DNA of 37,199 bases from an uncultured Pelagibacteraceae bacterium (GTDB lineage Bacteria; Pseudomonadota; Alphaproteobacteria; Pelagibacterales; Pelagibacteraceae). This document shows positions 32,773 through 36,376 of the stretch, piece by piece. Each line of letters begins with the position of its first letter. Within the stretch, counting starts at the first letter, position 1. The stretch is taken from contig CACGOM010000011.1 in NCBI GenBank assembly GCA_902574705.1, positions 1 to 37,199 on the forward strand, given 5' to 3'. Both the position numbers and the translations under genes were made by a program. Below the pieces are notes generated by a model, which was not told the origin of the DNA, made no database searches, and saw only the letters and a list, made by a program, of their open reading frames with translations.

Positions 32773-33453
32773 TTATTTACAAAGTAATTTAACAATTTTT
32801 TTTACTTCTTTTTTATTTTTAAATTTTTTGGAAGTAAAAAGACATGCAGATGACTTTAAAATAATTTCAATGGTTTTTAAATTATTTTGACGTAACGTTT
32901 CACCTGTTGAACTCAAATCAACAATAAGATCTGATTTTCCAATTATATGTGAGTTTTCTGTTGCTCCAAGAGAAGAAATAAGTTCATATTGTGTAATTCC
33001 TTTTTCATTAAACCAGTCTCTACTTAAGTTTTTAAATTTTGTTGCAACCCTCATTAATCTCTCTTTTTTTTTATAAAACTCAAAAGATATTTCTTCCAAA
33101 TCTGCAGAATTTACACAATCAATCCAAGCAGTTGGAACGGCAACTACTAGATCGGATTTTCCCCATTCAAACTCTTTTACTAGAGATACTTTAGATTGTA
33201 TACTAGGCTCACTTTCTCTCCATAGATCTTTTCCGCTAATCCCAATTGCACAAACACCTTTTCCTAAAGCTTCTATAATTTCTGTTGCGTTCATATACAT
33301 TACACGAACATTAGGAAATCCTTTAATCGATCCAATTAATGATCTTTCTGATTTTGAAATAATTTTTAAACCATTTTTTTTAAAAACTTTTTCGGCCTGA
33401 TCCTTTAAACGGCCTTTAGATAAAGTAGCAATGTTAATTATTTCATTTTTCAT
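32773..33453 (-). CDS. hisG: ATP phosphoribosyltransferase, short form (catalytic subunit)
   Basis: HisG carries out the first, committed step of histidine synthesis. At 226 residues it is the short form without the C-terminal regulatory domain, which needs HisZ; hisZ is indeed directly upstream. Family blocks: IATLSKGRLKDQAEKVF, CAIGISGKDL, and the PRPP-binding segment SDLIVDLSSTGETLRQNNLKTI. It starts with ATG overlapping the hisZ stop (ATGA) and is the last gene of the tRNA-His-hisS-hisZ-hisG unit, so it would share whatever controls that unit. Confidence 0.95.
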   Translation of the reverse strand: MKNEIINIATLSKGRLKDQAEKVFKKNGLKIISKSERSLIGSIKGFPNVRVMYMNATEIIEALGKGVCAIGISGKDLWRESEPSIQSKVSLVKEFEWGKSDLVVAVPTAWIDCVNSADLEEISFEFYKKKERLMRVATKFKNLSRDWFNEKGITQYELISSLGATENSHIIGKSDLIVDLSSTGETLRQNNLKTIEIILKSSACLFTSKKFKNKKEVKKIVKLLCK

Positions 33454-34487
33454 AATAAACTCATATCTATAGCTGCACCAACCGCTGATGTATCTTTTTT
33501 ACTGCCAAGATTTTTTAGCAATCCATCGTAACGACCTCCTGATACTAGCACACTTTTTTTACCCTTTTTATTAACTGAAATATTAAAAACCATTCCTGAA
33601 TAATACTCGAGAGATCGATTTATATTTGTTGAAAATTTTATTTTCAAACTTTTGTTAACAATTACAGGAAAATAGTCGTCAGTAATAAATAAATTTAATT
33701 TATTTTTTTTAAAAAACTTGTTTAATGTAACTGTGGCTTTCTCTATTGGACATGAAATTTTAAGATAATCTTTTATTATTTTTACATTTTTTTTATCTGT
33801 TCCAGATCTTGGTTCTTTATAATTTTTTAAATCAAAACGTTCTAAAATATCTTTAAGTGTTCTTCCGGAATATAAAGTGTTAAGATTTTGCTTTCTTAAT
33901 TTTTCAGCAATTTTTTTATCTTTCTCAACAGCAACAGGATCTATATCTGCACTGCTAGAAAGTTTTTTTAATAATTGATTAAAATATACTTCTCTACAAA
34001 AATGTCTTTTAATCCTGTCCTTCCAGCGCCTTGCTAGTGTTAGTCTATTTACTAATGCATTAAATATTTCAATGTTGCTTATATTTAATTCACCTGTTTT
34101 AAAATTTGATTTTTTAAATATTTCAATAGATGTTTGAATTATCTCTTTATCATCTTTAATTTTGTCATTAGAAGCGAAGATTTCAAATCCAGTCTGATTA
34201 ATTATGGGAGAGTTATAGTTTTTATTTTGTTTACGGTAAGCCTCTCCGGTATAAAACCATTTAGTTTTTGACTTAATTTTATTCTGAATAAACTTAACAA
34301 CACTGCTAACAGACAAATCAGGTACTAATGACCATTCTTTTAAGTTCTGATCATAAAAAGAAAATAGAAATTGTCTATAACTTCCTCCTGATCTTTTTAG
34401 AACATATTTTGACTCTATGATATTGTCTAACTCAATATTCTTAAACCCTTTGGATTTAAGAATTTTAAATAAGTTTCTTGATTTCAT
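33450..34487 (-). CDS. hisZ: ATP phosphoribosyltransferase regulatory subunit HisZ
   Basis: HisZ is a paralogue of histidyl-tRNA synthetase that has lost aminoacylation and acts as the regulatory partner of short HisG, mediating histidine feedback. The 345-residue protein has the class II synthetase-like layout: VPDLSVSSVVKFI, WFYTGEAYRKQ, QTGFEIF, RSLEYYSGMVFNI and a degenerate motif 3-like VSGGRYDGLL. It lacks the HisRS anticodon-binding domain. The ATG lies 23 bp inside the end of hisS. Confidence 0.92.
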   Translation of the reverse strand: MKSRNLFKILKSKGFKNIELDNIIESKYVLKRSGGSYRQFLFSFYDQNLKEWSLVPDLSVSSVVKFIQNKIKSKTKWFYTGEAYRKQNKNYNSPIINQTGFEIFASNDKIKDDKEIIQTSIEIFKKSNFKTGELNISNIEIFNALVNRLTLARRWKDRIKRHFCREVYFNQLLKKLSSSADIDPVAVEKDKKIAEKLRKQNLNTLYSGRTLKDILERFDLKNYKEPRSGTDKKNVKIIKDYLKISCPIEKATVTLNKFFKKNKLNLFITDDYFPVIVNKSLKIKFSTNINRSLEYYSGMVFNISVNKKGKKSVLVSGGRYDGLLKNLGSKKDTSAVGAAIDMSLL

Positions 34488-35853
34488 TTATTAAATTTTT
34501 TGAAATGATTGATATTTGATCGTTTTCTTTTTTAGATTTTAATTTCTTAATTGTTATTCTGCCCTGCTCAATTTCTTCTTGGCCACAAATAATTGCAAGA
34601 GAGCAACCTTTTTTATCCGCATAAGTCAATTGTTTTTTTAGATTTTTACTTGGATCAAGATATATCTCAGAATTAATATTATTTTCTCTGAGCTCATTTA
34701 CAATTTTATAATATTGATCTAGATAATTTGGATCTAAAACACAAACTAGAATGTTATTGCTATCTTCTTCTTTAAATTGATCTAATTGATTTAAAGCAAA
34801 AACTAACCTGTCTACACCTATTGACATACCTGTTCCTTTAAAATCAACGCCTTTAAATCTTTTAATAAGAGAATTATATCTGCCTCCAGATGCACAAGAA
34901 CCTATATCTATTTCTTTGCCTTGGGCGTTTTTTCCTTTGAAATTTAAATTTGTCTCAACACAGAAACCAGAATAATACGCTAGACCTCTAACAATGTTAA
35001 AATTCGTTTTAACTTGATTTGAAAATTTTCCTTTTGATAAAATATTAAATAATTCCTCTATTTCTTTTATGCCTTCTTGTGAGATTTCATTTTTAATATT
35101 TAATTTTAGAGAATTGATATCTTTTATTTTTAAGAATTCTATTATCTGAGAGGCTTGATCACTAGTTAAATTAGCGCCTTTAGTTATGGCTCCACTCTCA
35201 TCTTTTCTCTCTTTTTGTAATAGATCTTTTACACCATCTAATCCAATTCTTTCTAGTTTATCAATTGCTCTAATTACTTTAAGTTCTTGATCGCTAGTTA
35301 TTTTTAACTCAGCTATTAGACCTTGAACTATTTTCCTATTTGAGACATTGATTGTAAATTGATCTGCTTTAAGACCACAATTTAAAAATGTATCTGTAAT
35401 AATATTGCAAATTTCTGCATCTGCCTGTGCTTCGTTTACATTACCTATAATATCTGCATCGAACTGCATGAAAGATCTATATCTCGCACTGTCAGGCTTC
35501 TCTCGCCTAAAAACATCTCCATAAGTATATCTTTTGTAAGGGAATGTTAGGTCTCTATAATTTTGTGCAACAAACCTTGCTAGCGGTGCACTCATATCAT
35601 ACCGGAGGGTTAAGGATTCTTTTTCGTCCTTAAATGAAAATACATCAGACATAGGATTGGTATCATCATCTGCTAGAAATGATCCTATATTTTCACTTAT
35701 TTCCATTGGAGAAGTCTCCAATGGTAAAAATCCATACTTTGTAAAATTAGCCTCAATTATTTTTAATATCTTTTTCTTTAAAGCTAATTCTTTGCCCCAT
35801 CTGTCTTTAAATCCTTTTGGAAGACTGGGTATTAAATTGTTTTCATTTTTCAT
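34465..35853 (-). CDS. hisS: Histidyl-tRNA synthetase (alphaproteobacterial type)
   Basis: HisRS charges tRNA-His. The product is 462 residues from the ATG at 35853 (MKNENNLIPSLPKGFKD). Class II motifs are LRYDMSAPLARFV (histidine site), ARYRSFMQFDADIIG (motif 2), RGLAYYSGFCVE, and GTGMSIGVDRL (motif 3), then the anticodon-binding domain (VCVLDPNYLDQY...). The motif 2 loop wording FMQFDADIIG, rather than the E. coli FHQLGCEVFG, fits the alphaproteobacterial HisRS that recognises tRNA-His without G-1. An upstream in-frame extension to 35898 is rejected because it is tRNA sequence. The start codon is 3 nt after the encoded CCA of tRNA-His. Confidence 0.96.
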   Translation of the reverse strand: MKNENNLIPSLPKGFKDRWGKELALKKKILKIIEANFTKYGFLPLETSPMEISENIGSFLADDDTNPMSDVFSFKDEKESLTLRYDMSAPLARFVAQNYRDLTFPYKRYTYGDVFRREKPDSARYRSFMQFDADIIGNVNEAQADAEICNIITDTFLNCGLKADQFTINVSNRKIVQGLIAELKITSDQELKVIRAIDKLERIGLDGVKDLLQKERKDESGAITKGANLTSDQASQIIEFLKIKDINSLKLNIKNEISQEGIKEIEELFNILSKGKFSNQVKTNFNIVRGLAYYSGFCVETNLNFKGKNAQGKEIDIGSCASGGRYNSLIKRFKGVDFKGTGMSIGVDRLVFALNQLDQFKEEDSNNILVCVLDPNYLDQYYKIVNELRENNINSEIYLDPSKNLKKQLTYADKKGCSLAIICGQEEIEQGRITIKKLKSKKENDQISIISKNLINEIKKLI

Positions 35854-35856
35854 TTT

Positions 35857-35931
35857 TGGTACTGCCGCTTGGAATCGCACCAAGATAGCCCGCTCCACAG
35901 GCGGGAGTAATAACTATTATACGACGGCAGC
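35857..35931 (-). tRNA. tRNA-His (GTG)
   Basis: A cloverleaf on the minus strand: acceptor GCUGCCG / CGGCAGU (G1 faces U72), anticodon stem CCCGC / GCGGG with loop CUGUGGA (anticodon GTG at 35896-35898), T stem CUUGG / CCAAG, encoded CCA. The discriminator is A73 and the base before G1 is A, so the canonical G-1:C73 identity pair is missing, as known for alphaproteobacteria. The D loop has A where G18 is expected and the T loop reads UGCGAUU, with G instead of U55. A -10-like TATAAA lies at 35945-35950, but without a convincing -35 box. Confidence 0.93.
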
Positions 35932-35976
35932 TTCCTTTCACTGTTTTATACTAATAATTGTTAAATTTAAATTTTT

Positions 35977-36007
35977 AAAATGATTAAATAGCTAGCGTGC
36001 AGCCAGC
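35977..36007 (-). promoter_or_regulatory. Candidate attenuator hairpin and U-rich tract after the His codons
   Basis: On the minus strand GCUGGC (36002-36007) pairs with GCUAGC (35991-35996) around the loop UGCAC. The single G.U pair is possible only in the minus-strand RNA; on the other strand it would be A.C. The U-rich UAUUUAAUCAUUUU follows (35977-35990). This is the only G+C-rich patch in the spacer, and it overlaps codons 18-23 of the leader ORF. A ribosome stalled at the His codons would cover its 5' arm. An alternative long-range pairing joins 36050-36059 with 35979-35988 (10 bp). Confidence 0.5.
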
Positions 36008-36058
36008 ATGAATATGATGTCTGTGATTAGATCTGAAAGTACTATTTTTTTTAATCAT
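35984..36058 (-). CDS. Candidate histidine leader peptide (24 residues, His-rich)
   Basis: An ATG at 36056-36058 (minus strand) opens 24 codons, ending with TAA at 35984-35986. The peptide starts MIKKNSTF and contains NHRHHIH at residues 11-17 (His codons CAC, CAT, CAT, CAT at 12, 14, 15, 17), then AGCTLAI. Four His within six codons, directly upstream of tRNA-His-hisS-hisZ-hisG, is the hallmark of an amino-acid leader peptide of the HisL kind, though the sequence is not that of E. coli HisL. The last His codon directly abuts a hairpin (35991-36007). No Shine-Dalgarno is visible; the promoter just upstream would put the start codon at or near the transcript 5' end. The function is inferred from position and composition; the ORF is too short for coding statistics. 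Confidence 0.55.
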   Translation of the reverse strand: MIKKNSTFRSNHRHHIHAGCTLAI

Positions 36059-36064
36059 TGGATT

Positions 36065-36092
36065 TAAATAGCATTTAAATTCAAAAATTCAA
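36065..36092 (-). promoter_or_regulatory. Probable promoter of the His leader / tRNA-His-hisS-hisZ-hisG unit
   Basis: On the minus strand TTGAAT (36087-36092) and TATTTA (36065-36070) are 16 bp apart, and TGC before the -10 box makes an extended -10 (TGnTATTTA). The expected start site, 6-7 bp further, falls at the ATG of the leader ORF, implying a leaderless or nearly leaderless message. Confidence 0.5.
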
Positions 36093-36097
36093 GGATG

Positions 36098-36149
36098 AAT
36101 TGTATAGGAATAATCTTAGTATATTTAACTAATTTATCCCTATACAATT
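36098..36149 (-). repeat. 16-bp stem hairpin downstream of cspA
   Basis: Arms 36134-36149 and 36098-36113 form a 16-bp stem in the minus-strand RNA, with one G.U pair and a 20-nt loop. On the plus strand that pair would be an A.C mismatch, so the RNA sense is probably minus. It starts 17 bp after the cspA stop. No U tract follows directly, so it looks more like a 3'-stabilising or processing hairpin than a classic intrinsic terminator. Confidence 0.55.
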
Positions 36150-36166
36150 ATGTTGATGATTAAGAT

Positions 36167-36376
36167 TTACGACGTTTTTTGTAAGTTAACAGCCGCAGGA
36201 CCTTTGTCTGCATCCTCTACATCGAAAGTAAGTTCATCACCTTCATTCAAGAATTTTAATCCTGCATCTCTAACCGCGCTCGCATGAACGAACACATCTT
36301 TTTCTTTATCTTCACGCTCAATGAAGCCATAACCCTTCTTAGAGTTATACCACTTGATTTTTCCTTTTAGACTCAT
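36167..36376 (-). CDS. cspA: Cold shock domain protein (CspA/CspE family)
   Basis: A 69-residue single cold shock domain. RNP1 reads KGYGFIE (usual KGFGFI) and RNP2 reads DVFVHASAV. WYNSKKGYG and the C-terminal KGPAAVNLQ are typical. Such proteins bind single-stranded RNA or DNA, melt secondary structure and act as RNA chaperones or antiterminators. The start is supported by a purine-rich AAAGAG just upstream. The leader contains a small hairpin (36405-36421). It stands between tRNA-Phe and the His leader, so it may share transcripts with both. Confidence 0.95.
   Translation of the reverse strand: MSLKGKIKWYNSKKGYGFIEREDKEKDVFVHASAVRDAGLKFLNEGDELTFDVEDADKGPAAVNLQKTS

Follow-up and report, generated by a model that had tools for sequence, protein, structure and literature searches.

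A conserved His-codon reading frame running into an RNA hairpin, very likely a histidine leader peptide, upstream of tRNA-His, hisS, hisZ and hisG in SAR11 bacteria

The window analysed here, a stretch of 37,199 nucleotides from an uncultured Pelagibacteraceae bacterium (contig CACGOM010000011.1 of assembly GCA_902574705.1), was identified as SAR11 DNA, its closest named matches being uncultured Pelagibacteraceae with HisS proteins up to 96% identical. On the minus strand, the end of hisD is followed by infA, a tRNA-Phe gene, a cold-shock gene, a spacer, tRNA-His, hisS, hisZ and hisG. The spacer carries a short open reading frame (ORF) with clustered His codons, a hairpin and promoter-like elements (Table 1), and this leader lies directly upstream of genes for histidine charging and synthesis, namely tRNA-His and hisS, then hisZ and hisG. 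The initial annotation, made from this window alone, had proposed a His leader peptide coupled to the tRNA-His-hisS-hisZ-hisG genes; the ORF, His codons, hairpin and promoter-like site all proved to lie on the minus strand exactly where it had placed them, and the coupling is upheld by both position and conservation.

Table 1. Coordinates of the leader region and the genes downstream of it in the window
Feature	Position	Strand	Remarks
Promoter-like site, TTGAAT-16-TATTTA	36065..36092	-	Ends 6 bases before leader ATG; predicted leaderless or nearly leaderless transcript
Putative leader peptide ORF, 24 codons, MIKKNSTFRSNHRHHIHAGCTLAI	35984..36058	-	His-bearing ORF here in 81/81 genus loci
His block, HRHHIH	36008..36025	-	Last His codon (36010-36008) abuts hairpin
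Hairpin, 6 bp, GCTGGC-TGCAC-GCTAGC	35991..36007	-	Within 3' end of ORF; directly after His codon 36008-36010
Outer A+U stem, 5' arm, AATGATTAAA	36050..36059	-	Contains start codon; folding and pairing score
Outer A+U stem, 3' arm, TTTAATCATT	35979..35988	-	Directly after hairpin; folding and pairing score
TATAAA, likely -10 box of tRNA-His's own promoter	35945..35950	-	TATAA/GATAA conservation
tRNA-His (GTG)	35857..35931	-	
hisS	34465..35853	-	TIGR00442 above cut-off; ATG 3 bases past tRNA CCA end
hisZ (ATP phosphoribosyltransferase regulatory subunit type)	33450..34487	-	Best NCBIfam model is HisZ, below cut-off; Pfam tRNA-synt_His
hisG	32773..33453	-	TIGR00070 above cut-off

Among the loci with sufficient flank, hisZ was found downstream of hisS on the same strand in all 70, and hisG in 65 of the 70, two of the five misses being loci shortened by contig ends. 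At the tRNA-hisS junction (35851-35860), the hisS start codon follows the CCA of tRNA-His by three bases, so that the tRNA fills the position of a ribosome binding site and its processing would release a nearly leaderless hisS mRNA; the first ATG was located 3-7 bases past the tRNA-His end in 19 of 20 loci measured. Further upstream, between the cold-shock gene and the leader promoter, a long palindrome (TTGTATAGGGATAA...TTATTCCTATACAA, 36100-36147) had strongly conserved outer arms and a variable inner part in 41 aligned loci, and could be either a binding site or the element that terminates the gene upstream. The cold-shock gene itself was not found by tblastn in five of 103 loci (L007-L009, L214 and L216), in which the leader was still present.

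To avoid selecting loci by the spacer itself, SAR11 loci of the same genus were picked via HisS alone. Of 101 genomes searched, 89 matched at E <= 0.001, and the removal of seven weak partial matches and one partial gene (G056) left 81 loci; two others in which ARAGORN reported no tRNA (L190 and L216) stand outside the counts, the leader being visible by eye in both. In every one of these loci (81/81), the spacer contains a short ORF in which a His codon meets a hairpin of 6 bp or more. The highest His count in any seven-residue window was four in 33 spacers, three in 27 and two in 21, as opposed to 3240 dinucleotide-shuffled spacers, where three His in seven residues arose in 0.19%, two in 4.9% and four never. 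The combination of His-rich ORF and hairpin is far above chance. The 5' arm of the hairpin begins at the last His codon, as first proposed, and across the 81 loci the stem starts between -3 and +1 bases from the end of the nearest His codon, which is CAT in 73 and CAC in eight. The stop codon falls in the loop or 3' arm in 41 loci and beyond the hairpin in 38, while two have it in the 5' arm. Gaps between the ATG and the hairpin in 30 aligned leaders were mostly of 3 or 9 bases, an in-frame pattern that is partly built in, as the ORFs were selected for a His codon at the hairpin; none of the 81 loci was lost to a frameshift. In two loci (L231 and L230) the 5' end is gapped in the alignment as well, and the hairpins vary in length by 2, 4 and 6 bases.

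The encoded peptides vary by clade, with examples including THRHHFHAGCTLAI, GVHAHFHAG and THRNCFHS. One large clade (L007, L027, L149 and similar) was observed to be without the two middle His codons, reading THRNCFH-like as against THRHHFH, with the hairpin and end His retained; decay or retuning of the sensor is possible in this clade. A locus outside the set of 81 (L226) has a single His in its leader. The pattern HxHHxH occurs at nine sites in the window's own genome versus two in a backwards control.

Selection on the coding sequence was assessed in clade A, one of three informal groups (A, B and C) defined by peptide and not from a tree. Codons differing by one base were tallied over its 69 distinct sequences, by sequence pair and not as independent events: the His block gave 1127 synonymous versus 488 nonsynonymous differences, and the N-terminal ten codons 1639 versus 6482. 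This substitution pattern would fit selection on the His block and not on the N-terminus. The first His codon was CAC in all 57 sequences that have His at that position (the other 12 do not), whilst CAT was invariant (69/69) both at the last His codon and at the second codon of the His pair. With no synonymous change at any of these three clade-A His codons, the RNA itself may account for part of the conservation, and a constraint on it appears to act beside that on coding; in one clade the last CAT lies partly within the stem, which could by itself preserve that codon.

The hairpin in the window was the one terminator-like site in 801 bases scanned, for which shuffled sequences gave a mean of 0.3. 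Because the hairpins do not match up column-wise between clades, a register-free test was relied upon, requiring a stem of at least 6 bp with at least three G-C pairs at a His codon and allowing equal latitude in offset and loop at the background positions. For the real loci, whichever of the His codons in an ORF gave the best result was taken and stems were found by pairing, so universal pairing is built in and the evidence lies in the comparison of 81/81 with 1.1% (29 of 2606 positions elsewhere in the same spacers). The 81 hairpins comprise 19 arm pairs that group into seven core stems, in which sequences differ and pairing is kept: GCTGGC/GCTAGC (52 loci), ATAGCC/GGCTAT (19), ATGGCT with AGCCAT-like partners (5), GGTAGC/GCTATC (2), and GCAAGC/GCTTGC, ATAGCTG/CAGCTAT and GCTAGT/ACTAGC in one locus each. 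RNAalifold returned no consensus pairs on a mixed alignment of 30 sequences. Searches with Rfam at gathering scores identified only two tRNAs and the SRP RNA in the window, and the eight matches obtained up to E 10 for positions 35900-36200 included no leader or T-box model.

The initial annotation had further predicted a terminator and two mutually exclusive folds, in which the segment near the ATG would pair with either of two TAATCA copies. As for the terminator, the hairpin is conserved and the tract behind it is only moderately U-rich, at 2-6 T in the eight bases after the stem (mean 4.4, 81 loci). The final 20 kb of the window showed no enrichment of terminator-like patterns, with eight found versus 7.2 in shuffles. 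As for the folds, mutual exclusion did not hold up: an outer A+U stem pairs the start-codon region with the bases right after the hairpin and is compatible with the hairpin, its mean pairing score being 16.84 with its own partner, 14.56 with the partners of other loci and 12.71 with shuffled partners. The outer TAATCA copy (35981-35986) is kept, as TTAATCA after the hairpin in 42 of 68 clade-A loci. The inner copy (36024-36029) is not conserved; among the same 68 loci (61 distinct), it precedes the first His codon only in the window's own two copies, L001 and L032, and the alternative fold that uses it was rejected. No conserved antiterminator was seen in a non-exhaustive search.

Promoter-like elements flank the leader on both sides. 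Upstream, the TTGAAT-16-TATTTA site that had been noted at the leader ATG was confirmed, and TTGnAT ... TATTTA is visible in an alignment of 41 chosen loci. A first promoter pattern was found in 93 of 154 loci versus 1.9%, and TTGnAT ... TATTTA or TCTAAAA before the ATG in 67 of 81 loci versus 5.5% of shuffles, both patterns having been drawn up after the alignments were inspected. By eye, most leaders have no Shine-Dalgarno-like sequence (L236 has one), and this, together with the promoter-like site at the ATG, indicates that the leader message is probably leaderless. Downstream of the hairpin, 80 of 81 loci have TATAA or GATAA in the interval from 30 to 5 bases ahead of tRNA-His, against 129 of 1620 other spacer windows (8%), so that tRNA-His seems to have a promoter of its own. 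Similar elements were noticed by eye before some other tRNA genes of the same genome. Given that this element sits downstream of the hairpin, the control of tRNA-His itself that was originally envisaged is probably only partial.

The distribution of the leader was examined both with the spacer and with hisS. When the spacer DNA was used as a query, 252 of 399 genus genomes matched at E <= 0.001, of which many weaker matches, near 1e-4, may be due to chance; in one genome (G073) the spacer was 78% identical while HisS was only 47% identical. Elsewhere in the family, 14 of 27 matching genomes were examined; their 14 loci, from five further genera, all carry the leader (14/14), with stems such as GCTAAGC/GCTTGGC, GCTGAGC/GCTTAGC and similar. 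Homologous spacers without the ORF or its His codons, which had been named at the outset as evidence against a leader, were encountered neither among the 81 genus loci, 21 of which have only two His in seven residues, nor among these 14.

In a sister family, all 26 loci examined (of 44 matching genomes) encode a His peptide of 8-11 residues, most ending HHxHI (in the shape MxxxxHHHxHI), and a paired hairpin of 9-12 bp directly after the stop codon was detected by script in 25 of the 26, the hairpin of the remaining locus (L251) having been missed by the loop limit of the script and being visible by eye. In the stretches read from this family, the leader precedes hisS with no tRNA-His between. 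The sister-family hairpin (L241-L245 and L247-L267) was also seen to covary and to be followed by about five bases, a conserved C-run (CCCC/CCCCC), a mostly T-rich stretch and hisS. Outside the order, the leader was not seen at 27 hisS loci drawn from the best-scoring part of 81 matching genomes; 28 loci were examined in this set, one of which proved to belong to the same family and showed its leader. Under a simple criterion of three His in six residues, it was likewise not seen at 62 further hisS loci outside the order, mostly from Methylobacterium and its relatives (64 loci less two with short flanks).

The ORF, the hairpin, their geometry, their conservation and the gene order are observed directly, and a tiny conserved ORF before tRNA-His whose His codons run straight into an RNA hairpin is very likely to be a His leader peptide. 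We are highly confident that the spacer element senses histidine supply. As to its output, we consider a nearly leaderless, one-hairpin His attenuator that acts by termination, and adds to the expression of tRNA-His-hisS-hisZ-hisG, to be reasonably likely. In such a system, transcription would begin at the leader ATG or close to it, giving the ribosome a nearly leaderless message to translate. Under a shortage of charged tRNA-His, the ribosome would stall on the last His codons with its front edge over the 5' arm of the hairpin, and transcription would run on past the blocked hairpin into tRNA-His, hisS, hisZ and hisG. With ample histidine, the ribosome would move off, the hairpin would form and most leader transcripts would end nearby. 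The second promoter, between the hairpin and tRNA-His, would provide basal expression. Here we infer the transcription starts, translation, stalling, termination and direction of response from the sequences. With a footprint of the usual size, a ribosome waiting on the last His codon would sit over the hairpin's 5' arm; this is the simplest reading, and it is favoured by the comparable arrangement in the two families. The first His codon begins 18 bases ahead of the hairpin, and a ribosome stalled there should leave the hairpin unmasked, a case for which the attenuation reading does not account and for which no conserved antiterminator was found.

A His-sensing leader may instead have an output other than intrinsic termination, such as polymerase pausing, Rho, or decay or processing of the leader-tRNA-His-hisS transcript. 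The weak U-tract, the lack of a conserved antiterminator, the conserved outer stem that pairs the 5' end with sequence after the hairpin, and the five or so bases and C-run that separate hairpin and T-rich stretch in the sister family would all suit such an output, which we nevertheless regard as unlikely, since leaders of this type that precede biosynthetic genes are known to act by transcription attenuation. It is very improbable that the spacer holds a conserved RNA or DNA element (a tRNA promoter region or a small RNA) in which the reading frame is incidental: the two clade-A codons fixed as CAT in 69/69 distinct sequences and the conservation of the outer stem and promoter-like elements would accord with it, but the synonymous excess in the His block, the frame kept in 81/81 loci and the fact that hisS of the sister family is preceded by another His-rich peptide argue to the contrary. 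Least probable is a functional small protein present by accident, for example a metal-binding HxHHxH peptide, as HRHHFHAGC may resemble a metal ligand cluster but the N-terminus is unconstrained, the C-terminus is cut to HAG in one clade and the His residues are down to two in another, and the coupling to the hairpin and tRNA-His-hisS is constant.

Returning to attenuation by termination, we tentatively propose a one-hairpin attenuator without an antiterminator, in which the stalled ribosome would itself be the switch and the first target would be the sensed tRNA, doubling as the 5' leader of hisS and processed to give a near-leaderless hisS mRNA. If this were true, sensor, tRNA, synthetase and first pathway enzyme would be joined in a single loop in one of the dominant bacterial groups of the ocean. 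We know of no other case in which the gene for the sensed tRNA lies behind the sensor, and none was found in the literature search either. The streamlined genomes of SAR11 are generally regarded as poor in gene regulation; that two families should each retain a ribosome-based amino acid sensor, in different shapes, would suggest that tuning histidine charging is worth its space, and the sister-family form permits a comparison of how such leaders are rebuilt. The leader could have been overlooked earlier because, according to the available portion of that report, an RNA survey of Ca. Pelagibacter ubique dropped intergenic regions containing tRNAs from its ranked table (PMC2704228).

The working principle, a ribosome-mediated attenuator, is known, and no description of the SAR11 form was found in the open-licence literature searched; we have not classed it as a standard attenuator because an antiterminator was not found and we only infer termination. 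In E. coli, the pheM leader peptide controls the pheST aminoacyl-tRNA synthetase operon through Phe codons and a classical terminator and antiterminator, with no tRNA gene between leader and synthetase. The SAR11 leader is likewise placed before a synthetase operon, but with a tRNA gene in between. It also resembles the enteric his attenuator, as described in the available sections of its source, in that histidine genes are preceded by a short ORF in which His codons cluster and, putatively, ribosome stalling serves as the sensor (PMC3896937). Enteric HisL has 18 residues with seven consecutive His and a Rho-independent terminator/antiterminator switch (PMC3896937), whereas the SAR11 leader has two to four His in seven residues, a single hairpin that starts inside the ORF, and tRNA-His, hisS, hisZ and hisG as its targets. 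In bacilli, His leader peptides have been predicted before hisS* (encoding a HisRS paralogue) and hisZ, and these share with the SAR11 leader a short ORF of His codons before HisRS-family genes but belong to another phylum, with no tRNA gene mentioned in the operon in the accessible part of that study (PMC2965389). An alphaproteobacterial example is the leader peptide of Sinorhizobium meliloti, trpL/rnTrpL, the RNA of which starts with the ATG and is a leaderless attenuator in the excerpted account (PMC7298713). The SAR11 leader is probably leaderless in the same manner, and differs from trpL, which carries tryptophan codons and precedes trpE(G) (PMC7298713).
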